NCBI RefSeq assembly: GCF_042453785.1
Contig: NC_091671.1
Coordinates: forward strand, 37,959,001-38,023,000
Length of the DNA: 64,000 nt
Direction of reading: 5' to 3'
Source of the DNA: Malus domestica
Lineage: Eukaryota; Streptophyta; Magnoliopsida; Rosales; Rosaceae
Under the pieces are notes generated by a model that saw only the letters and a program-made list of their open reading frames with translations, was not told the origin of the DNA and searched no databases. This document shows, in pieces, positions 697-64,000 of this stretch. Each line of letters begins with the position of its first letter. Position 1 is the stretch's first letter. A program made the position numbers and the translations under genes.

Positions 697-1880
697 GTGA
701 GTTCTATTTCCCTTACTCTATCTTTGTTTATTCATAACGAACTACTTGTTCCATCATTATCCAATCATCTACTTTCTATTGGTCAAGTTACTGAGCAATT
801 AGATTGTGATGTGCTAATGTTTCCCACTTTTTGCCTACTTCAGGATATCCAGACTCCGGCGATAATTGGGCGTGGTACTAAGAGGATAGGGTTATATTAT
901 GTTGTTGATGTATCGGCAAGTCGAGTAAATCAAGTACGCATCAGTCATTCAAACAAGAATAAGATAGTCTGGTTATGGCATCGTCGATTAGGGCATGCAT
1001 CTTTTGGTTATTTAAAAAAATTGATTCCATCTTTATTTCATGGCGTTTCAAACTCTGATTTCCAGTGTAATGATTGCATTCTTGCAAAAATTAATCGTAT
1101 TTCTTATCTTTTGAGTTTCAATAAAAGAATAGTTCCTTTTGAGTTAGTGCATTCTGATGTGTGGGGGCGTTCTCCAGTAGCTACTAATCATGGGATTCGT
1201 TGGTTTGTTATTTTTGTGGATGACTGCACCAGAACATAGTGGCTTTATATTATGAAACATGAAAGTGATGTTGGACAAAATTTTCACCAGTTTGACTGCA
1301 TGGTTAAAAATCAATACTCTCTTCCCTTTAAGGTTCTCAGGTCCGATAATGGTGGAGAATATCTCAATACCAAAGTTTCTCAATATTTTTAGGAGCACGG
1401 CATTCTTCATGAGACTACCTGCCCATAAACCCCACAACAAAATGGTGTTGTCGAACGCAAAAATAGACACATTTTGGAAACCACTTAAGCACTCCTTATT
1501 GGTGCTCACGCTCCTCACTCCTCACTCCTATTAGGTGGATGCCGTCAAATACTCCGTTTATCTAATGAACTGAATGCCCTCTCGAGTGCATAATTTTCTC
1601 ACTCCTATGGAAGTTTTTGCTGATCATGTGACGTTACCATTTTCCCTTCATTTATCACCACGTATCTTTGGTTGTGTGGCCTATGTACACCTCCATAACA
1701 ATCAACGTAGTAAATTGGATCCATGTGCAGTTCGATGTATTTTTCTAGGATTTAATGGTCAACAAAAGGGGTGCTGGTGCTATCACCCTCCTACCAAGCA
1801 TATGTATGTCACTATAGATGTTACATTTTCCGAGCATAAGATGTTTTTTCTTACTGACCACACCTACTATAATCTTTAGG
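697..1880 (+). pseudogene. copia GAG-pre-integrase and integrase remnant
   Basis: The frame 697-1239 carries the GAG-pre-integrase signature (WLWHRRLGHASFGYL, then CNDCILAK), the HX3H-CX2C zinc-binding part that precedes integrase. It continues with HSDVWG and FVIFVDDCTRT, the start of the integrase core. The rest of the core appears in other frames (1259-1534), and the C-terminal integrase part with the LTPMEVF motif is at 1574-1880. At least two frameshifts and several stops separate these pieces, so no functional integrase could be made. Confidence 0.85.
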
Positions 1881-2449
1881 GGGAGATGAGCACATAAGAT
1901 TATAGTTGGATTGATCTTCCAACTCAATAGCAGTGAGAGCGTGACATCTGCGGTAATGGAATCTACCGTGACCCAACAGTGGGTTTGAGTGACTGTCATG
2001 ACCCAACAGTGGGTTTGAGTGACTACCGTGTGCCCAATAGCATACGTGAGCCCAATCTAAGATACTGCGCCCTTTGACTCACAGTTTGGACAGCCCAAGC
2101 ACTTCAAGAAATAACCCTTCTCTAGTTATACCCGTCCATATGCCCGAGGATATCCTTGAGGTAAGTTTGTCCCAATCTGATGTAGCTTATAATTTGACAA
2201 ACATTGAGAGTACTTATGTATTGCCTCCTAGATAAAACCGTGGGAAACCTCCTGACAGGTACTCTCCAGATGGAAAAGTGAGATATGCAATTGCAAAGTA
2301 TGTTTCTATGCATCGACTATCTTCCAAGTATCAAGCATTGGTGAATACAATGGATGGAATTAAAATTCCAACGAAAGTGGAAGAAGCTTTGCGTGATCCT
2401 TGATGGACAGAATCAATGGAGGTCGAAATGAAGGCTTTACAAAAAAAAA

Positions 2450-3860
2450 AAAATGGAACTTAGAGCGTGGAGCCACTACCCCAAGGAAAAAGATCAGTGG
2501 GATGCAAATGGGTGTTCACCATCAAACACAAAGCAGATGGAACCATTGACATATACAAGGCAAGGTTGGTTGCTAAGGGATACACATAGACTTTTGGAGT
2601 AGATTATTAGGAAACATTTGCTCCAGTAGCAAAGATGAACATTATACGGGTTCTTTTGTCTTTAGCTGCTAATTTTGATTGGCCGTTGAAACAATTTGAT
2701 GTAAAAAATGTTTTTCTTCACAGAGATCTGGAAGAAAAAGTATACATGGAGCTTCCACCTGGGTATGAAGTGCATAATAGAATAAGTAAGGTGTGTAGAC
2801 TGTGAAAGGCTCTTTATGGACTCAAACAATCGCCGAGAGCCTGGTTTGGAAGATTCACTGATGCAATGAAATGCAGATCAAACTTTGTTTATCAAACGCA
2901 TGGGAGAAAAGGTTACCTTATTGATAATATATGTGGATGATATGGTAGTCACAGGTAATGATACAGAAGAGATGGAGAGACTACATGTGTATCTTTCTAC
3001 GGAGTTTGAGATGAAAGATTTAGGAGGTTTGAAATACTTCTTGGGAATTGAAGTTGCTCGTTCCCGTGATAGTATTTATCTATCTCAACGAAAGTATGTT
3101 CTGGATCTTTTGTCTAAGACAGAGATGTTGGCATGTAAACCGGCAGAAACACCTATAGTTCAAAATCATCATTTGGCGATATACCCGGACCAAGTCCCAG
3201 CAAACAGGGAAAGATACCAGAAGTTAGTAGGAAGGTTGATTTACTTGTCTCTCACGAAACCATATATTGCATATGATGTTAGTGTAGTAAGTCAATTTAT
3301 GCACTCTCCTAGTAAGGACCACATGGCTGCAGTAATGCGAATATTGAGTTATTTGAAAGGAGCACTTGGAAAAGGATTGATTTTCATAAAATATGGGCAT
3401 TTGGAGGTCAAAGGGTACACTGATGCTGATTGGGCTGGGAATATTACTGATAGACGCTCTACATCAGGGTACTTTACATTTGTTGTAGGAAATCTTGTGA
3501 CTTGGAGGAGCAAGAAACAAAATGTGGTTGCTAGGTCAATAGTAGAGGCCGAATATCGTGGTATGGCACATGGGATTTGTGAGTTATTATGGTTGATGAT
3601 TCTTCTTACAGAGATTAGGTTCAAGCCACGTGGAGCTATGTTATTGTATTGTGATAATCAGGATACGCGAGAAATAGCTAATGATCCGGTTCAGCATGAT
3701 CGTACAAAACATGTTGAGGTGGATAGACATTTTATCAAAGAAAAGTTGGATGTCAACTTAGTTGAAATTCCATACGTAAGATCTGAGGACTAGTTGGCCG
3801 ACGTGTTAACTCATGCAGTGTCAGCAAAAGTGTTTCAGGACTCACTGGACAAGTTGGGTC
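2450..3860 (+). pseudogene. copia reverse transcriptase-RNase H remnant
   Basis: Short frames from 2450 give the copia RT start (GCKWVFTIKHKADG, then RLVAKGYT), each broken by stops. The 302-codon frame 2885-3793 holds the RT catalytic YVDDMV motif near residue 17, the KDLGGLKYFLGIEV motif, and RNase H with YTDADWAG and RRSTSGY. The RT and RNase H core is therefore recognisable, but upstream stops make it a pseudogene. It is followed by a short tail and the polypurine tract. Confidence 0.93.
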
Positions 3861-9600: not shown

Positions 9601-9612
9601 TGGTATCAGAGC
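9601..9612 (+). other. Primer-binding site (tRNA-Met type)
   Basis: TGGTATCAGAGC begins two bases after the 5' LTR. It is complementary to the 3' end of plant initiator tRNA-Met, which primes minus-strand synthesis in most copia elements. Confidence 0.9.
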
Positions 9613-13470: not shown

Positions 13471-14154
13471 ATGGTGGTCGATCATGGCTTCCGCCCGGCC
13501 TTCGTATTACCACTAGTTCTGGTCTTTACCTTCTCACCTATGAGCTCCAAAACAATGATTGCGGGGGCTCGCTGCCTTCTGGAGACTTCCTTGCCTCATG
13601 TGCCCGAGCTTCCGAAGCCTGAGCTGCCACCACTTCCCAATTTCCCAACGTTGCCAAAGCCTGAGCTGCCGCCGTTGCCTAAACCCGAATTGCCAAAGTT
13701 TCCAAATCCTGAGTTGCCACATGAGCTTCCAAAGCCTGAGCTGCCACAGTTGCCGAAACCTGAATTGCCAAAGTTTTCAAAGCCTGAGCTGCCGCATGAG
13801 CTTCCAAAGCCTGAGTTGCCGCCATTGCCTAAATCCGAATTGCCAAAGTTTCCGAAGCCTGAGTTGCCACCACTCTCTAAAGCCGAAAATGTACCAAAGC
13901 TTGAAGGCCTGAAATTGGCTGAAGTGCCCCATGTTCCAACCTTGCCTGCGGTGCCTCAACTTCCCAAGCCTGAATTGCCACCACTTCCCGAGTTCCCAAC
14001 GTTTCCAAAGCCTGAGCTGCCACCATTGCCTAAGCCTGAATTGCCAAAGTTGCCTGCAATACCAACTCTTCCCCATCTTCCAACTGAGCTACCAAAGCCC
14101 ACATTTCCCTCCATCCCTTCACTCACCCCACCTCACAAAACAACCCTTCCCTGA
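13471..14154 (+). CDS. PELPK1: PELPK-type secreted proline-rich protein, copy 1
   Basis: Single-exon frame of 227 residues. Residues 1-32 form a signal peptide (hydrophobic FVLPLVLVFTF, then AGA), so the product is secreted to the cell wall. From residue 45 the protein is built of PELPKLP/PELPPLP pentamer-like repeats rich in Pro, Glu, Leu and Lys. This is the composition of Arabidopsis PELPK1, a wall protein linked to germination and growth. A short non-repeat insert (KAENVPKLEGLKLAEVPHVP) splits the repeat region, and the same insert is in the second copy. The start is the first ATG after a TATA box. Tandem paralogue at 17469. The family match is strong; the exact role is inferred. Confidence 0.9.
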   Translation: MVVDHGFRPAFVLPLVLVFTFSPMSSKTMIAGARCLLETSLPHVPELPKPELPPLPNFPTLPKPELPPLPKPELPKFPNPELPHELPKPELPQLPKPELPKFSKPELPHELPKPELPPLPKSELPKFPKPELPPLSKAENVPKLEGLKLAEVPHVPTLPAVPQLPKPELPPLPEFPTFPKPELPPLPKPELPKLPAIPTLPHLPTELPKPTFPSIPSLTPPHKTTLP

Positions 14155-17468: not shown

Positions 17469-18041
17469 ATGGTGGTCGATCATGGCCTCCGCCCGGCTTC
17501 CGTCTTACCACTGCTTCTGCTCTTTACTTTCTCACTTATGAGCTCCGAAAAAATGGTTGTGGGGGCTCGCTTTCTTCTGGAGACTTCCTTGCCTCAAGTG
17601 CCGGAGCTTCCGAAGCCTGAGCTGCCACCACTTCCCAATTTCCCGTCGCTGCCAAAGCCTGAGCTGCCGCCATTGCCTAAACCCGAATTGCCAAAGTTTC
17701 CAAAGGCTGAGCTGCCACATGAGCTTCCAAAGCCTGAGCTGCCTCGGCTACCTAAAGCCGAAAATGCCCCAAAGTCTGAAGGCTCCAAGTTGGCTGAAGT
17801 ACCCCATGTTCCAACCTTGCCCGAGGTGCCTCAGCTTCCAAAGCCTGAATTGTCACCACTTCCCAATTTCCCGACTTTTCCGAAGCCTGAGCTGCCACCA
17901 TTGCCTAAGCCTGAATTGCCAACTCTCCCCCATCTTCCAGCTGAGCTACCAATGCCTACACTGCCTTCCATCCCAACCCTCCCCAAGGGCACACCCATCC
18001 CTTCACTCGCCCCACCTGAACACAAATCCACCCTTCCCTGA
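17469..18041 (+). CDS. PELPK-type secreted proline-rich protein, copy 2
   Basis: Single-exon frame of 190 residues, closely similar to the gene at 13471: same start (MVVDHG.RPA), signal peptide, ARFLLETSLP and the KAENAPKSEG insert. It is 37 residues shorter because several PELPK units in the first repeat block are missing, which is the usual result of slippage or unequal exchange. The C-terminus (APPEHKSTLP) differs slightly. Promoter and 3' flank are also duplicated, so the duplicated unit is about 1.2 kb, offset by about 4.0 kb. Expected location is the cell wall; both copies have open frames and probably function. Confidence 0.9.
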   Translation: MVVDHGLRPASVLPLLLLFTFSLMSSEKMVVGARFLLETSLPQVPELPKPELPPLPNFPSLPKPELPPLPKPELPKFPKAELPHELPKPELPRLPKAENAPKSEGSKLAEVPHVPTLPEVPQLPKPELSPLPNFPTFPKPELPPLPKPELPTLPHLPAELPMPTLPSIPTLPKGTPIPSLAPPEHKSTLP

Positions 18042-21281: not shown

Positions 21282-24200
21282 TCAATAAAGTCTGCCAGTG
21301 CACTCTGGAGAACCACAATAGCAACTCTTCTTCTTTATCTTGCCATTAGAATCACGAACCTGGTCTATCATATAATTGTAATGATAGGTCAACTCTTGCA
21401 AAGGAGGAATGTTCTCAGCAGCAAAGAACATGATGTGAGGAATTCTAGTGTCATCATGATCATAGAGGACATTTTGGGCATAAAGATTAGGAGAACAACT
21501 ATGGTTGATAAATCTTCCCACATTGCCGTACTCTACTGCATCAATGGTGAATCCACCTTCCCCCACAACTCCATGAGAACTTGATTGTGCATCGGGCATG
21601 AGGATTGAAAGTCCATCCCAAAGAGAATTGTCGCTGTAGTTATTCCCAATATCAAACAGATACTCATCATTCCCAGTTCTTTCTTCAGCTTCCTTCTCTT
21701 CCAGGAGCTCTCCTATATACTCACATATAAAACTTCCCGAAGGAATGGAATTTAGGGATCTCACTCCCCAACCCCTCGATTCAGTTTTGAAGATTTCAAG
21801 CTGAAATTTGATACCACGCTGACTAACTCTATTGTAACAAGAAGGAGGACACTTACAAGAAGGACCACACTCATACACAAGGGACTTTGCTTCAACAATA
21901 GCACCATTGAAGTTATATGGGATCTCACCTCCGTTCTCAACTGCACAAGAACATTTCTCAGAATCTGAGCATTCAACAATACAGGTACAACCCTTGGGAG
22001 GAACTGGGCGGCACCAATCTGGATATATCATGCTAGTTATGTATACAAATGTTGGAGGTTTCTCATCATCTATGGTATTCACAGCACAGACAGGAATGGA
22101 CTCTTTCCCTCCTGAAATATCATCAATGCATAGACCTTCCCGTACTTTATATTTTTTGGACTTCTTCACTTCTTTCCAAGCAAGCTCTGGTTGATCTCGG
22201 ACTCTGTCAAGTTGAAACTTGAAAACAAGCTTACCATGAGACCCCATATCCTGCCAACATTTCTCTACCAAATATAGTCCATCATAAACATATGTCTTAC
22301 TTCTTCCATCTTCAGAGCCACGGATCACTCTAACAGGATTTTTTTCATCCAGACTATTCTTTAAAGCAAGGTTTCCCCGTTCAAGCTTCTGATCTTCAGG
22401 TTCCTTATCAGTATTCATCACATTTCCTCCTTGGCCTGTATAAATCAAGGAACTTGAATTATCCAAATCATCTGCATAGCCACCAGATGCAACGATACTG
22501 GTTGCAAGGATCTTCCCACCATGCTTTACATAATCTATACCACCCTGAATCTGGCGATGAAGGCCAACAATAGTAAGTTCCACTCTGTAATGAAACTCAT
22601 CGCCAACTTCAACTCCCGGCACAGTTCCCAAGATTTGTTTGCCCGTATTTACATATTTTCCTTTATCCTTGAGGATCTTTGCAGCTGAATAATCAACCCT
22701 TTTGCGAGGAACTCCTCCTTCCTTTGACTTACCCTCTTCCTCCCGCAAGAGCTTCCTACAGAGAGCTTGGAACAGACGCAATGTCTCCCTCACCGTGTTT
22801 CGGGTATTATCACGAACTTTGCTAGTTGAACTACTAGTACCAAAAGGAGGAGGACATACATCAGAACAACCTGATCTTGGACTCACATAAAAGTCTTCTT
22901 TCTGGTCAAGCTCAAGAGAATACTCCTTCTTGTCCCAGACAACAAGCTGACGTGTACCTTCATAAGCACTCATTTGTGATATAGGAAGAATATTCTTTGG
23001 AGACTTTCCTCCAATGTCCGAGTCATCTTTTTTCCTGGAAATAGCCTTAGACCTTTCTATCTGACATTTCACATCAAGCTTCTTTCGTTTTCTTTCGCTA
23101 CTTCCACCTTCTAGTTTATGTAGGTCAACCACTTTTCCCATCCTCCATGGACAGTTTGACGCAGTCATCAAACCCATTACAACCGCTTTTTCCGACGTAA
23201 TTTCCGATCTTACAAAATCTTCTTCGTGCAATTGATTATGATAATAAGGTTTACCTAAGTCTGTCTCGCTTGGACTTTCCTTTCCATGGTATACCACCAT
23301 CTCCATCCCCACTTTCTCCTCTGAATGTTCAACACTCCCCGTGCCTTGGAATATATAGCGTCCTTGAGAAAGTTCATGGTAAATTTTTTTAGCATCTTCT
23401 GAAACCACGTTCATCTCATAATTTACATCATGGTGCCTTTCCAATTCTTGTACAGCATGTCCCTTGCTTTTTGGTTGAACCTTGTCCCCAATTAGTAGAG
23501 AAATATCCCCTCCATTTTCACTCTTGTGAAACTCTCTATCTTGAACATCCTCACCTGTTTGTCTCACAGTAGTCTTCGCTGTGTTCAATGATGATGGTTC
23601 GCCATCCATAGCGGACCTCTCTTGACCAAAATTCCTCGCCTCCAGGGCAGGGTTTCTTCCACAAAGAGGAGGGAAGTCCCGAATGGCTGATACTACTCTT
23701 CGAGGAGGATATTTTTTAACTGCAGTCTTCTCCAGACCATTTCCACTAGAAATGGAGATGGATCCATTGGGTGGTGAATCAGGCATAACAGAAGACATAT
23801 CTTCATTTGGTGTAGCCACACCAAGCTGAAGTGGGTCCTTCAACGAATCAGATATTTCATTCAGCAATGCATTTAAATCCACTGTCTCCACAGTACCAAA
23901 AGCCTTACCATTAGTCAATGCAGTCTCATTGATCGAACCAGCAGGTACCATTCGCACTTCAATCCCTTGTTCATCATCGTCGTTACCCCCGCTAATCAAA
24001 GCCTCAGCAGCAACAACAGAAGCTGCCTCTTCAACCGGTCTCCAATTGTTTAACCCATGTTGGTCATTTGGCAAATCAGAAATTTCATGCTCTAAGGTTG
24101 CCACTGATTCAATTCTCTCCACAGTACCCACATCCTTACCATTCATCAAGTCAGTCTCATCCACATGAACATTTGAGCGCCCGAGCTTGTCAACCCCACG

Positions 24201-24494
24201 TGCATCGCCATTTTCACCCCTACTAACCAAATTTTCTGTTGGTACACTGTCAAAATTTCCCCCAGAAGCAGCCCCTTCATGTCGTCTCAAATTTTCCCTT
24301 AACTGACCAAACCGTCCGCACCCCAGGGGAAAATCACGGACCGCAGAGACTGTACGCCTCTTTAAGTTAGGAGCACGGAAAGAGCACTCTCCATTTTCCA
24401 TGGATCGTCCCAATCTCCCCTCAGAATGACTACCATTAAGTGAAGCAATTCGCCTCGAAGATTCCGAATGTTGCATCGCTTCAACGACCCCCAT
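21282..24494 (-). CDS. SUVH5/6: SUVH5/6-type histone H3 lysine-9 methyltransferase
   Basis: A 1070-residue uninterrupted frame. The N-terminal half is long and acidic with two copies of a SAIRDFP.GCGR-type motif (near residues 50 and 270) seen in SUVH5/6 proteins. An SRA/YDG domain follows (about 610-760; GTVPGVEVGDEFHYRVEL, GIDYVKHGG), which reads methylated cytosine. Then a cysteine-rich pre-SET (about 835-890), SET (about 895-1035, with SRGWGVRS, FINHSCSPN and LTYHYNY) and post-SET CYCGSPECTGRLY at the C-terminus. The catalytic NHSC motif and the zinc cysteines are present. The role is nuclear: it couples CHG DNA methylation to H3K9 methylation. The coding part is intronless as in many SUVH genes; a 5' UTR intron is listed separately. 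Which of SUVH5 or SUVH6 is uncertain. Confidence 0.95.
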   Translation of the reverse strand: MGVVEAMQHSESSRRIASLNGSHSEGRLGRSMENGECSFRAPNLKRRTVSAVRDFPLGCGRFGQLRENLRRHEGAASGGNFDSVPTENLVSRGENGDARGVDKLGRSNVHVDETDLMNGKDVGTVERIESVATLEHEISDLPNDQHGLNNWRPVEEAASVVAAEALISGGNDDDEQGIEVRMVPAGSINETALTNGKAFGTVETVDLNALLNEISDSLKDPLQLGVATPNEDMSSVMPDSPPNGSISISSGNGLEKTAVKKYPPRRVVSAIRDFPPLCGRNPALEARNFGQERSAMDGEPSSLNTAKTTVRQTGEDVQDREFHKSENGGDISLLIGDKVQPKSKGHAVQELERHHDVNYEMNVVSEDAKKIYHELSQGRYIFQGTGSVEHSEEKVGMEMVVYHGKESPSETDLGKPYYHNQLHEEDFVRSEITSEKAVVMGLMTASNCPWRMGKVVDLHKLEGGSSERKRKKLDVKCQIERSKAISRKKDDSDIGGKSPKNILPISQMSAYEGTRQLVVWDKKEYSLELDQKEDFYVSPRSGCSDVCPPPFGTSSSTSKVRDNTRNTVRETLRLFQALCRKLLREEEGKSKEGGVPRKRVDYSAAKILKDKGKYVNTGKQILGTVPGVEVGDEFHYRVELTIVGLHRQIQGGIDYVKHGGKILATSIVASGGYADDLDNSSSLIYTGQGGNVMNTDKEPEDQKLERGNLALKNSLDEKNPVRVIRGSEDGRSKTYVYDGLYLVEKCWQDMGSHGKLVFKFQLDRVRDQPELAWKEVKKSKKYKVREGLCIDDISGGKESIPVCAVNTIDDEKPPTFVYITSMIYPDWCRPVPPKGCTCIVECSDSEKCSCAVENGGEIPYNFNGAIVEAKSLVYECGPSCKCPPSCYNRVSQRGIKFQLEIFKTESRGWGVRSLNSIPSGSFICEYIGELLEEKEAEERTGNDEYLFDIGNNYSDNSLWDGLSILMPDAQSSSHGVVGEGGFTIDAVEYGNVGRFINHSCSPNLYAQNVLYDHDDTRIPHIMFFAAENIPPLQELTYHYNYMIDQVRDSNGKIKKKSCYCGSPECTGRLY

Positions 24495-54489: not shown

Positions 54490-56600
54490 GAGCCTTCTAT
54501 TTATTGGTGGTTATTTGAACTAAAATAAAATAAAGAAACCCATTCCAAAAAATAAATACCGAATTAATTGAAAAACAAAATAGGAACGAAACGTGATATT
54601 GCTCAATGACAATAAGGAGGTGAGGCAAGCCCTAGGGAGCTTCTGAAACTTGACAGACAAAATTTGTTGCTTGTTGAATTGGAGAAAATTTGCATGAACT
54701 TCGATGTTGCTAAGACGGCTGAATGAATTCAAGGAATAATGAAGGATTGAGAGAGATGAAGAATTAAAGAGAGAAACGTGAAAGCGCTTTGTATTATCAT
54801 CGATGATTAATTATACTACAGTTCTCCTTTTAGTTATATACAACTACGGATGTCAACGGGGTAGATCGGGTTTGGATGTGCCATATGCGAACCTGTTTAT
54901 TTTCTTTGAACCCGAAACCATAGAATCCCTGAACGGGTTTTCTCCATAACCGAATCCGTCAGGTAACGGATTTTTTATCTGACAACGGTTTTCCCCATCA
55001 TAATATTTATATATTTATATATTATTAATTAAATAGTAAATTTAAATAGACTACTGTTACAATGCCTATAATGCATATATTAAATAAGATAAAGTTTAAT
55101 CAAAACAGGAGAAAACGCGTGAGAATCTCTCTCTGGTTTCCCATCATGCAATCTCCTTTGTCGCCAACCCCAGCCTTTGACTGGGGTGCCGGTGGTTATC
55201 CTTGTCCAAGTTCCTTGTTCTCCTCTTTCCCTCTTTCTCCTAATCCTCTTATCTCTTTTTCAATTTTCCCCTGAGATTTGTCTCAGCTTCCTTGAGCTTT
55301 ATCTCAAATTTTCCAGTGAATTTATCTCATTTTTGGGCTTCATGTCCCTTCTCTCCACCCCTCCCTCTCCTCTAACCGTTCTTTTCCAAAGCCAAAACTC
55401 CATCTCTCCTCACTTTTCCCCTCTTCCACCCTTCCCATAAACCATCCCCACCCCCATCATTTGCTCTGATCTCCAGACTCCGGGCCGAATATGGTTGCCA
55501 GATTTATTTCCCTCCCTCACTGTCCCCTTTCCAAAAAAAAAAAAAAAAAAACTTGTCAAATTTCCCTCAAGGCCAAGTGTACTGCGGCTTTGGCCAAAGT
55601 AAGAGTATTTTACATACCCCCTTAGCCTCACATTTTATCCATGTGTTACTGTGTTTGTATATATTTGCAGGGATTAGTGAATGAGATTTGGATCTGGTGA
55701 CTATCTTTTGGTTCTACGTCTTTGGTGAAGAAATATGGATGTGGTGTGCTTCTTGTTGCGGTTTTGGCACTTTTGTGTTGCGATGTCTTGTTCGTTTTCA
55801 CCACTCGGTTGTTTTCTTTAGTGTTGCTGTTTCGGTAGTTGCTGGTAAGACTTTCGTGGCGGTGATGGTAGCAAACGCTGCTTTCTACGACCGAAAATTA
55901 GGGATTTGGGTTTCCGTTTTAGTTTTATTTAATTGGGATGGGCTTTTATGTATCTGTTTCTCCCAATGTATTTGAGTTATTTTGTCTTCCTTTGTGTTGG
56001 CATGTAACCTTATATTTGATTAATGAAATTATCTTTTCTTACCGAAAAAAAAAAGATTAAGTATTAAATATTAAATAGTGTTATTAATACAATTGATACA
56101 AACAAAGCATGTAATAAATTTATTAAAAACAAGATTCATACTATTAATAATTGATAAGCATATCATTTAATGCATATAATTACTAGTACGGACTTCCATA
56201 TTTAATAATGCATGATTATTGATAACTCTCTTCTCCATATAATAAATACTAGGAGAGAAACACCATGCACTGGATCACTCTATTGACATAATTCTTCTAT
56301 GTGTAATGGATCTTGCATGTTAAATTTTATAGAAAACTAACCAAAACACCCTCAAAAATTTCACTTTAGTCATCAGGACAAAACTTAGCAAAAATGCCAA
56401 TCATGCCCTTCACACATCCATACAAGATTGCTCAGCAATGAAGATGACATTTTCAGAAAAATTTTGCATGCCAAAGATAAGGTGGCAAACATTGCAGCAA
56501 CCAAGACAATATGGATTCACGTGGCCTTCAGCAGCTTTCAGAAACAGTGCTGACAGCTTTCAGAAACAATGTGTTGTCACCATCAAAAAGTTGTAAATAT
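54490..56600. other. Intergenic, possible old retroposon 3' end, no confident gene
   Basis: The 95-codon frame at 55688-55975 matches no family I know. The sequence after it, ending TTTGATTAATGAAATTATC and an A run at 56045-56055, resembles a plant retroposon or mRNA 3' end, so a truncated LINE or processed copy is possible. Confidence 0.4.
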
Positions 56601-56636
56601 TGAAAAGTTATTTTGTTGTTTAGGAATCAGCTTTTG

Positions 56637-57209
56637 TATATAAGGGAGCATTTTCTCCCATACAGAACACACCTGAATACCACACACCTCTCTCAACATC
56701 TAAAAACACCATACTCACTTCATACACTCAAGCATTCGTAGCCTTCATAGCATCCTTGTAAACACTTCTTTGTAATCACTTTCTTGTAAACAACTATCTC
56801 TGTAAACATTCCATATATCAATAAAAGTTCAAATGTACATATTTAAGCAATTTTCAAGTCTTAAATAAGTTTTCCTTTCATTCTTTAGTGCGTTTGTTTA
56901 ATTAGACTTCTAGTCCAAAACAGGGAAACACTATTGCGGTTATATTATTAACCTGCTAAACTGACGATCATACTTTGTTCGAGCACTCTGTTATAGTTGA
57001 ATGTTTGCCATACAAATAACTGGACATTAACCAGGGTACCTCTGAGTTCTTCGTACCTCTGAGTTCAGCCGTTAAGGCCTTATACTTGTACTGTGAGTGG
57101 CCGTCATGCTGAAACATGTCGAGTTCCATGTGCAAGGTTCTATGTCTAGTTGTTATAATGGTCATCCGATTATTTAACCGAGCATGCTTTGCGAATTTGG
57201 TATCAGAGC
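56637..57209 (+). promoter_or_regulatory. Pararetroviral promoter/leader: TATA box, poly(A) signal, primer-binding site
   Basis: A TATATAAGG box at 56637-56645 is followed by AATAAA at 56820-56825, 180 bases on. This is the close promoter-to-poly(A) spacing found in caulimovirids, where terminally redundant RNA passes the signal once. A long leader then leads to TGGTATCAGAGC (57198-57209), complementary to tRNA-Met, the minus-strand primer that marks position 1 of these genomes. The first viral ORF starts 87 bases after it. Boundaries with host DNA on the left are not defined. Confidence 0.75.
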
Positions 57210-57295
57210 CAAGTTTAACATTTTAATAGTATAATTATAATAGTAAAGTACCTGAGGATATAAGTCTTTGATACAACTGATATCATATTTGTTTA

Positions 57296-57556
57296 TTGTA
57301 TATGAACAACAGATATTACTGTCCCTGTAGACCCTGTCAACCACAATTACCAGGTATTTATTGTCTCAGACATCCAACTATAACTAGCATAAAGAGAAGA
57401 TTAACATATATATCCAAAAGAATTATTAGTACTTTGAAGAAGCAAAAGTTTTATCTTGGATATCTTGAACATCCTTCATTTATTCGTAAATATAATAACA
57501 CAAAAGTGCAGCATAAAGTTTTAGAAGCAAAAAGAACAACAAATCAAGTTTTATAG
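57296..57556 (+). pseudogene. Small viral ORF just after the primer site
   Basis: An 86-codon frame with a basic centre (SIKRRLTYISKRIISTLKKQ). It is in the same frame as the next ORF at 57629, separated only by two TAG stops (57554 and 57622), so both may be parts of one longer ORF1. No domain recognised. Confidence 0.55.
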
Positions 57557-57628
57557 ACCTTGAGAGAAGAAAGAGGGTTTTTAAGAAACCAGTTAGCCGT
57601 AACTCTAGAAAAAGGTAGATTGTAGTTT

Positions 57629-58132
57629 ATGATAGATTATCTTAATTTAGAAATTAGTGAACCTCAAAAAAGAAAAATAACTTTAGATCAAAATAGTTTA
57701 GTTTGTTATTTTCCATCAAGAAAGCATAATCATATTTTGCACAGTGAAGAAAATTCACAAGCCAATACTATTGTAGATCTTATTATTAGTCAAGCAGAAA
57801 ATATAAAATTAGAAAATAATAAGCATAATCATTTATTAAACCAGTTGTTAGAACATTTTCAGAAAAATTCTATAAAAATAATTAGACAAAATTTAGACTA
57901 TATTACATCTCAGTTAGAAGATAATAATAGAAATATTCAAAGGTTTCCTAGCAAAAGAGAGATAAAAGAGCTTGTTGATCTTATAGATAGTAAGCCGAAA
58001 CAAGTAGAACTTAGATCATTAGAAATAATTGAACAACTAAAATTAGAAGTTCAAAAAATTCAATTAGTACAAAAAGAGTTAAGTGAACAAGTAGATAAGT
58101 TACATAATAAAATAGATAAATTATTAGTTTAA
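57629..58132 (+). CDS. Pararetroviral ORF1-like protein
   Basis: 167 residues, rich in Asn, Gln, Lys and Leu. The C-terminal third (IEQLKLEVQKIQLVQKELSE and the following residues) has heptad spacing and should form a coiled coil. By position it corresponds to the badnavirus/tungrovirus ORF1 protein, whose role is poorly known. It ends in TAATG, so its stop overlaps the start of the next ORF. The frame is intact, but expression from this decayed copy is unproven. Confidence 0.6.
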   Translation: MIDYLNLEISEPQKRKITLDQNSLVCYFPSRKHNHILHSEENSQANTIVDLIISQAENIKLENNKHNHLLNQLLEHFQKNSIKIIRQNLDYITSQLEDNNRNIQRFPSKREIKELVDLIDSKPKQVELRSLEIIEQLKLEVQKIQLVQKELSEQVDKLHNKIDKLLV

Positions 58133-58491
58133 TGACAGATTCTAGAACTAGCAGAAAATATATTCAAGCTTTGAAAGAAATTAGTAAGTTAGATAAAGAA
58201 CCAGTAGGATTAACTTATTTTTCAACACAAGTATCCAGTAGTAATATTCTCATTAGGCAAAATAATTTGATTATCCAATTAGTTTTAAGTTTAGCTGAAA
58301 AATTAGATCAAGTTGAAGAACAACTAGCAGAAATAAACCAAGTTTTACATAACGTATCTTCATCACTTCCACCATCCTTGCTAGATAAATTAGAAAATTT
58401 AACTTTGAGTGCAAATAATAATAGAAGACCTAAGCTAAATCCTTTTGATAATAGAAAATGGAACTCTTTAGGAAAAAAGGAAAAGAAGTAG
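58132..58491 (+). CDS. Pararetroviral ORF2-like protein (virion-associated type)
   Basis: 119 residues. The ATG overlaps the ORF1 stop (TAATG), the coupled layout typical of badnaviruses and tungroviruses, where ribosomes leak through to ORF2 and ORF3. The middle (QLVLSLAEKLDQVEEQLAEI) forms a short coiled coil and the C-terminus is basic (KKEKK), both as in badnavirus ORF2, a nucleic-acid-binding virion-associated protein. The end overlaps the polyprotein frame by 34 bases. Confidence 0.65.
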   Translation: MTDSRTSRKYIQALKEISKLDKEPVGLTYFSTQVSSSNILIRQNNLIIQLVLSLAEKLDQVEEQLAEINQVLHNVSSSLPPSLLDKLENLTLSANNNRRPKLNPFDNRKWNSLGKKEKK

Positions 58492-59492
58492 TTAGAGCGA
58501 AAGATATTTATCCAAATGAAGAAGAAGCACAAGAATTTATTCAAAGAGGTTTTGAGAGAACACAGAAAAATAAATATAACTTTTATCAATTAGCTTTATT
58601 TGAAAACAGAAGTAGAATTGTAAGCAGCATCAGTCAACATGAAGTTAGCTGTATTGATAATGAAGTCACACTTAATCTAATTAGTAAAGAAGCAGTTACT
58701 CATTTGAGAAAATCACATTTTAGTCAAATTCATTTAGGAACAATATTAATTGGAATAGCAGGATTAACCAGAGCACAAGTAGGTACAAAAGTTTTAGTAT
58801 ACATATATGATGATAGATGGGATAATCACCAACAAGCAGAAATAGCAACAACTGAAGTAGACTTAAGTTCAAACTTAGCAGTCATAGGTTGTATTCCAAA
58901 TTATGTTATGACGATTAATGAATTTAGTAAATATATTAAAGTGAGCATAAGAACAAAAAATTATAATATGAAAGGAGAGTATAAAAATTTGTGTATTAAC
59001 TTAATATATATAGGTAAATTGTATGATAGATATAATCATAAGTTTAATTTAGAGTTTCAAAATTTAGTTCAAACATTTGGCAGTAAACATGTAAATATGA
59101 TAGAAGCAAAACCCGTAGATAATAGTTTTTTAGAAGGAACTCAGTGGACATTGCCTAATTTACAAATAGCACCAAATAGACAACCAGATAAAGTACAAAT
59201 ATATGAAACTAGTACAGGTCAAGCAACAATTAGGTTTAGTAATTATAAGCAACTAGAAAAAATAGAAAAGGATGAGAGTGAAATTGAAAATGAGAGTATA
59301 CATATGGCTTTTGATAATTTAGGTATTAATTTAGTTGAACAAAATTTTGATCATATTGTAGATAAACTTATAGAAGATATTGATCATTTAGATGAAGAAC
59401 AATATTTGGAAAAATATAAGACATATGATTTAGGATTACATAAAAATTCAGACGAAAAAATGAAAATTTTAATCTTAGAAATAGGAGTATAA
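58458..59492 (+). pseudogene. Pararetroviral polyprotein part 1: movement protein
   Basis: A 344-codon frame with the 30K-superfamily movement-protein core: LGTILIGIAGLTRAQVG, then VYIYDDRW with the conserved aspartate, and later NEFSKYIKVSIRTKNYNM. Such proteins form tubules or open plasmodesmata for cell-to-cell spread. The frame ends at a TAA at 59490-59492; the same frame continues open at 59493 into the coat-protein segment, so this is one interrupted polyprotein. The start codon is chosen only by position and could lie further upstream in the overlap. Confidence 0.75.
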
Positions 59493-59531
59493 CACATTTT
59501 AGGATCAAAAGAATATAATAATTTATTAAAA

Positions 59532-60622
59532 TTGAAAGCAGAATGTAATCCAGCAGAAGAAAGTAGTACATCAGGAGTAGAAAATCCAAGACACGCAAGC
59601 AGAACTGATCAACAATTTTTGAGACCAACAAATGATCAATATAATGAAAAAGCAAAAGTAGACTATATGGAAGAAAGTATGATAAAACCTAGAAAAAACA
59701 GGATTCCATATTTGAGAGGGTTAGAACAAATTAATATAGCTGGTAATATATTAAATTTAGATAATGTAGATCCACAAGATTGGGCAAGAACGATTGAGAG
59801 ATGGGGAAAAGGCTGCGTACATGCAGCATTAATGTTAGATTTTAGTAATTCACAAAATATGTTAGATTACTTTGAGCATACTTTGGATGATTTAGTTTTT
59901 TATTATTTCCAGTCATGGAAAGTTCAAAATCCAGAACAACATCAAGCAGCTAAAACACATTTTAATATTGATGGTTTTGTTACTTTGATTAAACAAGAGT
60001 TTTTAGATCATAATAGATTAGATGGCAGAAGTGAACAAGAACAAATAAGAGCAATAAGAAATTTAGAACAATTACAAATTTGCGATTTACAGTATATAGC
60101 TGAGTATACCACATATTTCTTTAAATATTTAGGAAGAACAGGTAGAATTAGTAATATTAATTTATTAGATATTTATATGACAAAAATAAAAGGACCAATA
60201 GGTGAAAAGATTTGGAATGAATGGCAAAAGCATCCGAAGAAAAATGATATTGCTATAGGACCTAGAATTCAACATGTATATGATATACTCAGACAAGAGT
60301 TTAGTCAAATAAAAGCTAAGAGACAAATTAGGAAACAATTCTACATGTGTTGTAAAAATATAGATTTACAACAACAATATGGTTACCATAAGAAAAAGCA
60401 TAAGAAAATATACAAAAGGAAATATAAGTTGTATAAACCCTACAAACAACATAAGAATTTCAGCATAGGACATTCAAGAACATATAGGAAAAGAAAATAT
60501 ATTCCAAAACAATTTAGAAAAAGAAGTGGCAGACCTTGGATTAGAAAATATAAAGCACCAAAAGATAAGAGTAATTCTAATTGTTATTCATGTGGATAAG
60601 TTGGACATATTAGATCTAAATG
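59532..60622 (+). pseudogene. Pararetroviral polyprotein part 2: coat protein with zinc knuckle
   Basis: Same frame as the movement-protein segment. The capsid part has DPQDWARTIERWGKG, LNLDNVD and FVTLIKQEFLDHNRLDG, as in caulimovirid coat proteins. A very basic Lys/Arg-rich stretch follows (about 60330-60560), then a CCHC knuckle whose second half is cut by a TAA at 60597-60599; the remaining VGHIRSKCP is still readable past the stop. The capsid packages the viral DNA. The stop makes it non-functional as read. Confidence 0.75.
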
Positions 60623-60659
60623 TCCAAAATTAGGTAAACAGTCGAAAGAAAAAGTACAT

Positions 60660-61115
60660 TTGATGGAGTTGTTAGAAGAAGATGAGGATATTCAGTCAAT
60701 ATACAGTTTAGATAATTTAAGTGATAATGAGAGCATTTATAGTATAGAGAGTATTAACATGATAGATTCAGACTCAGAAGATTCAAGTAAAACAAATAGT
60801 GATCTAGAAGAGTATATGTGTGCATTCATAAAAGAACAATATGAAGAAGAATATAAATACATCAATTTAGGTTGGCCAGAAAAATGTCATAAGTGTAGTA
60901 AATTAGTTGCAAATAAATACTATAATACATATTCAATATTATGTGAAAAATGTTATAATAATAGGTTATTAGAATTACAAGAAAATACTGAAATATTAGG
61001 AAATATTGTTTATAGTATAGAAAAACCAAAAAATAGTTCTTTAATTACCAAAAATTGTGAAATATAATTAGTAAAAGAACATAAGATACAAACGATAGCT
61101 ATGATAGATACAGGG
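60660..61115 (+). pseudogene. Pararetroviral polyprotein part 3: linker and start of protease
   Basis: Same frame again. An acidic linker (EDEDIQSIYSLDNLSDNES) is followed by a zinc-like pair (KCHKCSKL and later LCEKC), a TAA at 61065-61067, and then AMIDTG at 61101-61115, the aspartic protease catalytic D-T-G. The insertion at 61116 follows immediately. Confidence 0.7.
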
Positions 61116-61935
61116 TGTAACGCCCCTAGCATTGTTTGGGCTTTGTTCTAGACCTCAAGAGGAGTCTAGCAATGGTGATAATTAGAGGTAAACCTTTCAC
61201 AATTGTTTAAAATCGAGCAAGGTTGCCGCGGCACCCGTGAGGTGTTTTCCCCCATTCTAAGACCAATTTAATCCCCAATTTGTAGTGGAATAGGTAAAAG
61301 AGATGATTAGAGAAAATTTTCAGGTGATGGGGGACCTAAATTTCATCGGAATTTGGCCGGGAGACAACAAATCCCGCCGGTTATGCCCCACGGGTCAAAA
61401 GACCCGTTTTCCCCCCTTCTCCCTCTTGTTCTCTCCTTTCCCTCCTTTCTTTCTTTTCTGATTGGGATGTGCCCATTTCCGCCACTCACCAACCGCCACG
61501 TGGCTACACACCCATGCTCCAAAAGATCTAGAGCTCTCCAGAAAATGGTCGAATGACCATTTCATCGCTGACTTTGTTTGTTTATATCTTCTTCGTTATA
61601 ACTCCATTTCACAAACGGTTTGCGCCCACGTGTTCGTGGGGTCGAGCTCTATTCACACATATAAATTGTGACCCAAAAAAATTGACAGATTTTAAATAAT
61701 TAATTTCCAACTTCAAACTTCGTAACTATTTTAATTTAAAACTAGATTCAAATAAATTAATATAATTTCCCAATGAATAACATAAAATCTCAATAACACT
61801 TTACATAATTTATAAAAAATTTCAATAACAAAATTATAAAATTCCCCAATTCTATTTCTATAATCATAAATCGATTTATTTTCGATTTTTCTCCACATAT
61901 TATGAATATCTATCTCATATATTTAAATTTTTCAA
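61116..61935. mobile_element. Solo-LTR-like insertion inside the viral protease
   Basis: It begins TGTAACGCCCC, a start common in plant Ty3/gypsy (Tekay-type) LTRs. It is about 820 bases, GC-richer than the virus at its left and AT-rich at its right, with no RT. Viral protease coding resumes just after it (STKSVIREELV from 61942). No exact target duplication could be confirmed; the right boundary is good to a few bases. Confidence 0.65.
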
Positions 61936-61938
61936 GGT

Positions 61939-62156
61939 ATGAGTACAAAGAGTGTCATAAGAGAAGAGTTAGTATCAGAAAAATATAGACAAAAATTAGC
62001 AAAACCAGTAAGAATAACACAATTTGATGAGAGACCAATTTACTTAACACATTGTATAAATAATGAGTTTATTAAAGTAGAAAATAACAATTTAATTTAC
62101 CATTAACATTTGTTTCACCAGTAGGATCATATCCATTTATTTTAGGTTTAAACTTT
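61939..62156 (+). pseudogene. Pararetroviral protease, second part, with frameshift
   Basis: Open from 61939 (MSTKSVIREELV, then ITQFDERPIYLTH) to a stop near 62106. The next viral segment (SPVGSYPFILGLNFL) is in another frame, so a one-base frameshift lies near 62095-62100. The G-L-N-F-L end is the usual C-terminal motif of the retroviral-type protease. Confidence 0.65.
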
Positions 62157-62647
62157 TTGAAAAGTTTGCAAGGTTTTTTATTTATGAACCCTAACATAAC
62201 AATTTTCAAAAAAGGCATTACAATAACTGACCAAAGTAATACTGTAGAAGCATACAAAAACATAAGTATAGAAGAGCCTAGTGGCCAAGATAGTTATCAT
62301 TTAGAAAACTTAAAAGAAAATGATGAGCATAATAACGTAGAAGAGTTTGATGAAGACATTTTTGAACATGAATACCCGATTTTAGAAGAATTAACCTGTA
62401 TAGAAATATTACAGCTAGATAGACCAAAGAGTTTAGAAGAATTGTTACAATTAGCAGAACAAACTAGGATTATAGGAGAAGACCCACAGTTACATTGGAG
62501 TAAAAATAAAATACTAGCAAAATTAGATATAATTAACCCAGATTTAACCATTAAGACGGCTGATATGCCTTGTAGTCTAATAGATAAACAAGAGTTTGAG
62601 CAGCAAATAAAAGAGTTGTTAAATTTAAAAGTTGTTTGTACCATACT
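62157..62647 (+). pseudogene. Pararetroviral polyprotein: protease end and RT start, cut by a gypsy element
   Basis: The frame runs from the protease end (LKSLQGFLFMNPN) through an acidic linker to KQEFEQQIKELLNLKVV, the conserved lead-in to caulimovirid reverse transcriptase. At 62648 the viral reading ends at the LTR of a gypsy element. The catalytic YxDD of RT is not in the window. Confidence 0.7.
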
Positions 62648-63136
62648 TGACCAATCCCGAAACTACCGAGCACCGGCCAACGCTATACTGTCAAGGACCC
62701 AGAAGAGTTCCCCTCCGACCAGGAGGCCAATCACTACTAGAAGCCAATCAGAGCGCAGCACGTGTCGACATCAAGAACCAATCACAACATGACACATGTC
62801 AATGTGACAAAGCTACAAGTTTTTCTATAAATAGGGGTCATTCCCCCACAATATTGCCAAATGCCATTTTGTGTTAAATCATTCACAAGAACTCACTAAA
62901 TTGAGAGCTTGATCCTTTGTACTTGTGTAAGCCCTTCACTACTAATAAGAACTCCTCTACTCCGTGGACGTAGCCAATCTGGGTGAACCACGTACATCCT
63001 GTGTTTGCTTCTCTGTCTCTCTTCATTTACGTACTTATCCTCACTAGTGACTGAAGCAACCAAGCAACCAAGCGAAGGTCACAAAACCTGACACTTTCTG
63101 TTGTACCAAAGTCTTCGCTGATTTTGTGCATCAACA
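62648..63136 (+). repeat. 5' LTR of the gypsy element
   Basis: It starts TGACCAATCCC and ends ...GCATCAACA, directly before the primer-binding region. TATAAATA at 62826-62833 is the likely promoter. The partner LTR is outside the window. Confidence 0.75.
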
Positions 63137-63138
63137 TT

Positions 63139-63156
63139 TGGCGCCGTCTGTGGGAA
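63139..63156 (+). other. Primer-binding site of the gypsy element
   Basis: TGGCGCCGTCTGTGGGAA starts two bases after the LTR. TGG is complementary to the tRNA CCA end. The tRNA species is not assigned. Confidence 0.7.
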
Positions 63157-63243
63157 ACGACACTTATTCCTACTCTCTTCAGCTGTGTCAAGCTGGTTTC
63201 TATCATTCGTACACTTTCTTTTGACCAGGCATCCCTCTCCAAC

Positions 63244-64000
63244 ATGGGAAGCGAAGGAAGCCACAGCACACAGAATGACACCCCCCTTGCACATAGTGCG
63301 AAACAACGAAAGAAGGAAGGAAAACGAGTTCTTCTTCAAGCTAAAGTCGATGAGTTGGAAGCTCAGAACAACAAGATAGCAATGAAGAATGAGGTCCTCC
63401 AGGAGCAATATGAGAAGCTCTTCGAGACACTCCACGAAGCTAGGCAAGCTCAGACACGCGAGCTTGTTGCCCCCGTGGAAGTCAACCATCAACTGGGTGC
63501 CCTCCAACATGGAGGGTCACATGCATTCGACATAGATATCCCTGATAGGGAACAGATTACCCCTCGACTTGATAATCAACATGAGGCTTCTCTTAACCCA
63601 GTTGCTTCGACCCGAACCATGAGAAGTGGAGGGAGACACCTCTTTGCTGAAGGGGCAGAAGGATCGAAAGCCGTCTTTCGCGATTGTCGGGATTTCCTGA
63701 AGCAACGTCGAGAGAATTCCATCCATATAAGCTCAAAGATCAATGACCCAAGGATTTCTGAGAGACTCGGTCCCCTGCCACGGCCCGAGCCGGCCACCAA
63801 TTTGGGGAAGGGGCAACAAGTCCTAGAGAGACATGAGGGTACAGGGGACTCAGAGGTGTTCCGACAGACATACCCTGGAAGCCAGTACAACGAGTCCAGG
63901 GAAAAATCACATGCCCTTGATCAAACCTTCCTAATTCCAAGAGGAGATGGAGATTTACGAAAGAAAGCTCCAGTGGCACATAACTCCGCTCAGGACCCCC
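63244..64000 (+). CDS. Gypsy gag-like protein, N-terminal part, open to window end
   Basis: Open frame of 252 codons from ATG (MGSEGSHSTQNDTPLAHS) without a stop to the right edge. It has a coiled-coil segment (VDELEAQNNKIAMKNEVLQE, about residues 37-60) and is hydrophilic throughout, as in the N-terminal region of plant gypsy gag precursors. The position, 88 bases after the primer site, fits gag. The long open frame suggests a young element; the retrotrans_gag core would follow outside the window. Confidence 0.75.
   Translation, partial: MGSEGSHSTQNDTPLAHSAKQRKKEGKRVLLQAKVDELEAQNNKIAMKNEVLQEQYEKLFETLHEARQAQTRELVAPVEVNHQLGALQHGGSHAFDIDIPDREQITPRLDNQHEASLNPVASTRTMRSGGRHLFAEGAEGSKAVFRDCRDFLKQRRENSIHISSKINDPRISERLGPLPRPEPATNLGKGQQVLERHEGTGDSEVFRQTYPGSQYNESREKSHALDQTFLIPRGDGDLRKKAPVAHNSAQDP

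Follow-up and report, generated by a model that had tools for sequence, protein, structure and literature searches.

Caulimovirids are regarded as having no integrase, and their entry into genomes is described as accidental in PMC4241990 and PMC10377300; the locus reported here raises the question of whether one lineage took a more regular route. The locus lies in Malus domestica, in a stretch of 64,000 nucleotides (NC_091671.1, positions 37,959,001 to 38,023,000; hereafter the window, with coordinates counted from its first base). At window positions 56,330-62,632 lies the 5′ portion of an endogenous caulimovirid, now decayed, and the viral sequence continues past the window end, at G000:C11 38,034,399 to 38,037,449. 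An earlier note on this DNA had called an endogenous pararetrovirus at 56,600-62,647. The call holds, with a movement protein (MP) that matches caulimovirids and a reverse transcriptase (RT) that prefers a caulimovirid-type chain over Ty3; the limits overlap, and the exact bounds are replaced by those given here. We consider it probable that the locus is a Tungrovirus-like caulimovirid provirus of a lineage that was inserted repeatedly, probably by a host Mutator-like transposase acting on the viral ends.

Ends and target sites of the insertions

We searched the host genome (651,096,769 bases, 19 contigs) for further copies; a copy count had been proposed in the earlier note. Coat-gene matches number at least 119 and are spread over contigs C1-C17 (114 of 472 candidates scored; a few copies yield two matches each). 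Matches to the caulimovirus coat domain PF22909 number at least 150 (150 of 386 candidates scored), with none in the 14 control genomes, and matches to open reading frame 4 (ORF4) at least 81 (80 of 573 candidates scored).

The sampled copies share both termini, and similarity between them ceases within ~20 bases of one common place at each end. All 12 five-prime pieces carry a common 5′ start motif, and all 13 three-prime pieces a common 3′ end motif ~205 nt past ORF4, and the circular genome is opened at a single place in these insertions, downstream of ORF4 and ahead of the promoter. Allowing one mismatch or none, the 5′ motif occurs at 98 places genome-wide; its reversed control occurs at none. 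Among 12 neighbouring end pairs hand-picked from lists of 98 and 40, a choice that favours regular lengths, 10 span 8,449-8,652 bp, one 8,842 and one 6,868. A tRNA-Met primer site and a unit length within the 7.1-9.8 kb of caulimovirid genomes (PMC7660458) are both present. A terminal direct repeat (long terminal repeat, LTR) of the viral unit was sought and not found. Lacking terminal redundancy, a single provirus would have to be re-circularised before it could replicate. The left end in the window comprises two features.

56321..56329, no strand: left 9-bp target-site duplication; exact match in the fixed frame, right copy at G000:C11 38,037,450-38,037,458
56330..56382, forward strand: 5′ terminus, arm of an imperfect ~53-bp terminal inverted repeat; starts at C11:38015330, 37/54 identical to the inverted 3′ end, 0/1000 shuffles as good

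Both ends could be located in 16 of the 19 copies tried; 13 of these 16, the window copy among them, are flanked by an exact 9-bp duplication in the motif-defined frame. These repeats were first spotted by eye and later called by script. When left and right flanks from different copies are paired, 6 of 240 give a match of at least 8 bp even when shifts are permitted. The two ends are also inverted relative to one another: over the outer 52-53 bp, 31-37 of 53-54 positions are identical, and none of 1000 single-base shuffles does as well in any of 8 copies. The observed ends score 36-51; for random window pairs the 99th percentile is 30, with one pair reaching 79. A nine-base duplication outside inverted ends is characteristic of Mutator-type transposition.

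Accidental end-joining integration followed by segmental duplication is the prevailing view for caulimovirids (PMC4241990; PMC10377300), and for this lineage we think it highly improbable: flanks differ among copies while the ends and the duplication length stay constant, and 13 of 16 copies contradict it. Common ends and exact 9-bp duplications in dispersed copies thus speak against accidental entry here. In the titles and abstract openings covered, with subscription papers mostly outside, we found no caulimovirid with fixed ends or 9-bp duplications.

The agent of insertion was probably external to the virus. In the viral ORFs that were scanned against Pfam, neither a transposase nor an integrase domain was seen, and the genome holds at least 149 Mutator-like element (MULE) transposase domains (PF10551; 150 of 482 candidates scored). 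The viral unit has the 9-bp duplications and inverted repeats (short and imperfect) of Mutator-like elements and no MULE transposase of its own. MULEs as a family show 9-bp duplications, inverted ends and A/T-rich targets, and the viral insertions share all three with MULEs and Pack-MULEs; they differ in having no transposase inside, a whole virus genome under selection as cargo, and a short, weak inverted repeat. On the reading we favour, a host Mutator-like transposase would have recognised both viral ends while the virus circulated, and one genome unit would have been pasted repeatedly into A/T-rich targets.

An enzyme of the virus itself, such as a cryptic function of ORF4, or another integrase acting in trans, as from a retrotransposon, might instead happen to make 9-bp duplications. 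ORF4 is conserved and has no assigned function, as such an explanation would want. We nevertheless regard it as improbable: sequence searches of Pfam and the PDB with ORF4 gave no integrase or transposase match, an integrase domain is lacking from the RT-RNase H piece, and ORF3 terminates shortly past RT-RNase H. An LTR element nested in this very copy makes a 5-bp duplication, and LTR elements usually make 4-6 bp duplications.

Several shortened copies were also seen. One 1,050-bp derivative (L099, G000:C6:31544000-31545200) carries both viral ends and a 9-bp duplication and has no match to MP, coat protein (CP) or RT. Three of six pieces compared are internally joined, at three different junctions; L095 and L096 have junctions other than that of L099.

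Selection on the copies and origin of the lineage

Between-copy dN/dS is 0.22 for CP (30/30 copies used), 0.15 for RT-RNase H (RT-RH; 6/8), 0.35 for ORF4 (7/10), 0.19 for ORF1 (10/11) and 0.27 for ORF2 (11/11). We sorted variants by the number of copies that carry them and expressed the ratio of nonsynonymous to synonymous changes (N:S) as a fraction of neutral. Variants in three or more copies stand at 0.16 for CP, 0.06 for RT-RH, 0.28 for ORF4 (a single change), 0.15 for ORF1 and 0.11 for ORF2. Private variants stand, in the same order, at 0.84, 0.38, 0.46, 0.60 and 0.70, and variants in exactly two copies at 1.21, 0.13, 0.76, 0.11 and 0.16. Changes carried by at least three copies are strongly purified and private ones much less so, a pattern that points to a replicating virus which integrated repeatedly more than to a single captured provirus that was amplified. 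Overall, the older divergence arose while the genes were in use, and decay came later.

The same data bear on a Pack-MULE origin, in which a provirus was captured once between Mutator-type ends and multiplied as a non-autonomous DNA transposon, with no viral replication. Common ends, 9-bp duplications, a weak inverted repeat, the presence of MULE transposases in the genome and an internally deleted 1,050-bp derivative that keeps both ends and its duplication would all be expected of such an element, and the two-copy coat variants look neutral. Passive copying of a captured provirus should, however, leave shared changes near-neutral, and in CP, RT, ORF1 and ORF2 the changes carried by at least three copies are under strong purification; this class holds only 2 stops, both in CP. 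We therefore consider a Pack-MULE origin unlikely, though the least unlikely of the alternatives.

Repeated insertion of a circulating virus by a host transposase has its own difficulties, and the following points weigh against it. The sampled copies were drawn from the best-scoring ones, and intact copies are over-represented. The exact 9-bp duplications are found in 9/9 copies of the discovery set and 4/7 of the later set; of the three non-exact later copies, one has a T-run, one a single mismatch and one unlike flanks, and two of the 13 exact duplications lie in T-rich flanks. Inward of the terminal ~53 bp, likeness between the two ends does not exceed that of shuffles (fraction 0.63), which leaves only a short, weak inverted repeat. 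A MULE sharing these ends was not identified, no dedicated comparison of the ends with the MULEs of the genome having been made, and transposition was not demonstrated. The class of variants in three or more copies is large in CP only (84 changes, 2 stops). Two-copy coat variants are unpurified (with 4 stops) and two-copy ORF4 variants weakly purified; the two-copy coat class might be due to copies that diverged from a recent common ancestor once inserted, or to sites that mutated more than once. Finally, no AUG lies upstream of the leader hairpin in the 8/8 sisters scanned (10 tried), where ribosome shunting would expect one; the window copy does carry an AUG at 56833.

A further step is to see in this lineage a natural virus-transposon hybrid, alternating between free virus and true provirus by means of Mutator-type ends used by a host transposase; it would be an integrating caulimovirid whose insertion is coordinated and limited to one genome unit. 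We offer this tentatively, at just short of even chances. Teratorn, a fusion of a herpesvirus and a piggyBac element (PMC10175614), likewise joins a virus genome to a DNA transposon; it differs in being an animal virus and in the transposon superfamily involved. If the hybrid view is true, the virus becomes heritable for part of its cycle with the help of a transposase taken from the host, in distinction to Teratorn, which carries its own. The route of pararetroviruses into plant chromosomes becomes directly testable at such loci, and the clean insertion ends can be used for dating and marker work.

Layout and placement of the virus

The promoter, poly(A) signal, tRNA-Met primer site, coupled small ORFs, MP, coat and protease parts and RT start named in the earlier note were all located, together with a large hairpin in the leader and the place of a leader splice donor that the sisters retain. 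All of the following lie on the forward strand unless stated.

56637..56644, forward strand: TATA box of the pregenomic promoter, TATATAAG; also in 9/10 sister leader pieces
56820..56825, forward strand: poly(A) signal AATAAA, ~155 nt past the inferred transcript start; same anchor-relative place in 10/10 sister pieces
56865..56870, forward strand: leader splice-donor site; lost in the window copy, kept in 10/10 sister pieces
56930..57244, forward strand: large leader hairpin; z=-3.39, 0/100 shuffles as good
57198..57209, forward strand: tRNA-Met primer binding site TGGTATCAGAGC, in the hairpin 3′ arm; 9/10 sister pieces
57629..58132, forward strand: ORF1, 167 aa; two long helices predicted, dN/dS 0.19
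58132..58491, forward strand: ORF2, 119 aa; predicted helix 39-78, basic C-terminus, mean predicted local distance difference test (pLDDT) 63.5, dN/dS 0.27
58458..59492, forward strand: ORF3 movement-protein segment (PF01107); terminates at an in-frame stop
59532..60599, forward strand: ORF3 coat-protein segment (PF22909); stop inside the zinc knuckle
60600..61115, forward strand: ORF3 acidic linker and protease start, up to the DTG motif
61116..61945, no strand: unrelated insert of ~830 bp splitting the protease, ends approximate
61942..62504, forward strand: ORF3 remaining protease and linker; frame change near 62,085-62,104
62505..62632, forward strand: ORF3 N-terminal RT region; matches a sister piece (residues 1-44) at 98% identity

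The polyprotein has the marks of the Caulimoviridae. A Pfam scan places the 30K movement-protein domain PF01107 at 58458-59489 (E=9.7e-16) and the caulimovirid coat domain PF22909 at 59532-60596 (E=4.5e-21) in the same frame, so that the absence of a caulimovirid match for the movement protein, which would have told against the pararetrovirus call, did not occur. An aspartic protease and RT-RNase H of caulimovirid type are present and an integrase domain was not seen, the protease and complete RT-RH domain scans having been made on a sister copy. The protease DTG stretch lies in an open frame in 6/8 sister pieces. Sister ORF4, 3′ of ORF3, is 538 aa long and intact in 3/10 pieces. A PDB search with the MP gave no match. 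Scans of IMG/VR gave no relative either, whether made with the MP, protease or RT piece or with alignments of ORF1 and of MP. The sole IMG/VR match (L001) looks by eye like a phage gene and was rejected.

The leader is organised around the hairpin and the splice donor. The hairpin is paired in 98.6% of cells across 10 copies; covariation is nearly nil (a double change in 1/129 pairs, which 271/500 shuffles reach), and the covariation score is reached by 22/500 shuffles. Folding of the whole leader is unexceptional (z=-1.09, equalled by 3/20 shuffles), and sliding 300-nt folds give a best z of -2.46 among 13 windows. A GTAAG donor lies 3′ of the poly(A) signal in 10/10 sister leaders. An acceptor CAG lies 2 nt 5′ of the ORF4 AUG in 7/9 sister pieces with the site found (10 looked at) and in the window copy. 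In the living virus, ORF4 would have been expressed from spliced RNA. The primer site lies ~530 nt downstream of the inferred transcript start, and its distance to ORF1 is 432 nt in 8/8 measurable sisters and 431 in the window copy. An 84-codon ATG frame occupies 57302-57556, between the primer site and ORF1 and in the frame of ORF1. The primer-site 12-mer TGGTATCAGAGC recurs once in the window, at 9601.

ORF1 and ORF2 are coupled through TAATG and are conserved in length as well as sequence. In a large protein collection, ORF1 has 13 homologs and ORF2 has 17 at E<=1e-3; five other ORF1s are of 167 aa and seven ORF2s of 118-122 aa. ATG occurs nowhere within 57629-58460 other than at the starts of the three ORFs (dinucleotide shuffles, P=0.002). 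Permutation of synonymous codons gives P values of 0.49 and 0.57 for this scarcity, so the rarity of ATG lies in the choice of amino acids, and codon-level avoidance of AUG is not supported. The ORF2 ATG is the sole extra ATG between the ORF1 and ORF3 starts in 8/9 measurable sisters, and the remaining one has two more. Internal methionines are absent from 12/12 full-length ORF1 and ORF2 homologs and number 4-10 in six MP/CP fragments. The start contexts of ORF1, ORF2 and ORF3 are weak, weak and strong, and in the living virus ribosomes would have scanned leakily past the first two to the third. A layout of this kind is described for Rice tungro bacilliform virus (RTBV) and badnaviruses in PMC5902531.

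The ORF1 model (pLDDT 71, predicted TM-score 0.28) has as its top BFVD match the Agapanthus tungrovirus p24, a weak one (E 0.035, 26% identity, TM-score 0.28, root-mean-square deviation 15.3), and the likeness of the models is only suggestive. The predicted ORF2 helix at 39-78 (pLDDT 63.5) spans the position of the coiled coil described at 47-74 in SCBV P2 (PMC10885806), and ORF2 may be virion-associated-protein-like. A fold search with the ORF2 model returned nothing useful. PDB sequence matches of ORF2 and ORF4 were weak unrelated chains only and were discarded, as were weak Pfam matches of ORF1, ORF2 and ORF4 to unrelated families. One ORF1 homolog (P0012) lies above the DUF1947 cut-off, at 24.9 bits over only 29 residues, and 12/13 members of the ORF1 set match that family at E<=1.

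The gene order had suggested a badnavirus, and the title of the earlier note described it as badnavirus-like. The ORF1-ORF2-ORF3 order does stand, and it is a tungrovirus trait as well; the position of the primer site, the ORF4 of the sisters and the splice signals do not agree. PMC5902531 describes P1-P2-P3 order and leaky scanning in badnaviruses, as here, and places their primer site near the transcript start and ahead of the leader hairpin, with that of tungroviruses downstream; here it lies inside the hairpin 3′ arm, a placement that is intermediate and not badnavirus-like. A TAATG junction is described in some badnaviruses, there between ORF2 and ORF3 (PMC4974523), and DUF1319 gives weak matches in 3/13 ORF1 homologs (best E=0.001), whereas it is matched neither by the window ORF1 (E<=1) nor by six homologs scanned singly (E<=0.1). 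Membership of the genus Badnavirus is therefore very unlikely.

A Tungrovirus-like layout fits better: besides an ORF4, the sisters have a donor in the leader and an acceptor where ORF4 begins, and the placement of the primer site departs from that of badnaviruses. Shared with Tungrovirus (Rice tungro bacilliform virus; Agapanthus tungrovirus) are the three leading ORFs, an MP-CP-PR-RT-RH polyprotein, the leader splice donor and a long leader before the primer site; the sisters have the four ORFs of that genus, with ORF4 after the polyprotein. RTBV P4 arises from spliced RNA according to PMC5902531. There are also differences: here ORF4 starts from a separate AUG beside the acceptor, where in Tungrovirus it is fused to a leader upstream ORF (uORF); the pre-hairpin uORF associated with shunting was not found in the sisters scanned; and the ends are fixed and flanked by 9-bp duplications. 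The likeness is one of layout, and we do not assign the virus to the genus Tungrovirus.

RT clusters named 'Tungrovirus' have been described in PMC9794742 (de Tomas and Vicient 2022), one common to Prunus and Vitis and another in Malus; Tungrovirus-01 comprises 251 RTs in 29 species, and Tungrovirus-04 occurs in Malus. Judged by that description only, the present lineage, which the earlier note thought could be undescribed, may already be known at RT level as one of these. The clusters are known there from RT domains, and no genome layout or insertion ends for them were seen in that description. Florendoviruses are likewise high-copy endogenous caulimovirids, and the layout upholds the separation from them drawn in the earlier note: as described in PMC4241990, they have mostly a polyprotein ORF1 plus ORF2 and no P1/P2, and their loci are tied to TA repeats.

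Decay of the window copy, nested element and neighbouring genes

The window copy is dead. Its reading frames hold stops, 14 of them in ORF4, and a frame change; it has taken up an insert and a nested retrotransposon, and its leader splice donor is gone. The stops in ORF3 are at 59490, 60597 and 61065. Of the single MP-coat-protease-RT frame proposed earlier, the sharing of a frame by MP and coat holds, and the continuity does not, with ORF3 interrupted by stops, insert and frame change. In the sister piece that matches the N-terminal RT region, the RVT_1 domain begins at residue 59. The nested element enters the window as one further feature.

62628..64000, forward strand: nested Ty3/gypsy element; 5-bp duplication 62628-62632, 5′ LTR 62633-63136, then internal sequence as far as the window end

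This element is ~12.8 kb long (window 62633-64000, then L032 and L033:1-1898) and lies inside the viral RT region, with an identical 5-bp sequence on both sides; the virus resumes at L033:1899 (G000:C11:38,034,399). Its two LTRs (62,633-63,136 and L033:1378-1898) are identical at 504/504 aligned sites, with a 17-bp length difference, and the element is young. Its polyprotein carries gag, RT and integrase domains.

The RT of the virus lies beyond the nested element, at L033:1899-3117, where RT-RNase H shows 86-93% identity to a sister copy and has one stop. Over the 114 residues before that stop, the RT scores 132.5 bits against PDB chain 8r0s ('Enzymatic polyprotein'), which we take to be the cauliflower mosaic virus enzyme, and 71.3 against Ty3. 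A longer sister RT piece scores 378 bits to 8r0s versus 203 to Ty3. The RT of the nested element, as an internal control, gives the reverse (Ty3 149.9 bits, 8r0s 94.2). A grouping of the RT beyond the window with Ty3/gypsy, which would likewise have told against a pararetrovirus, was thus not observed. A Ty3-closest RT, an integrase and LTRs, the marks of Metaviridae, are found in the nested element and are lacking in the viral unit.

Elsewhere in the window, two alike proline-rich (PELPKPELP) open frames lie at 13471-14154 and 17469-18041 and are probably duplicates, the first with no Pfam match. Copia-type gag-pre-integrase and RT fragments occupy 697-3793. A SUVH-type histone methyltransferase gene with SRA, pre-SET and SET domains lies at 21282-24494 on the reverse strand and supports a plant nuclear context.

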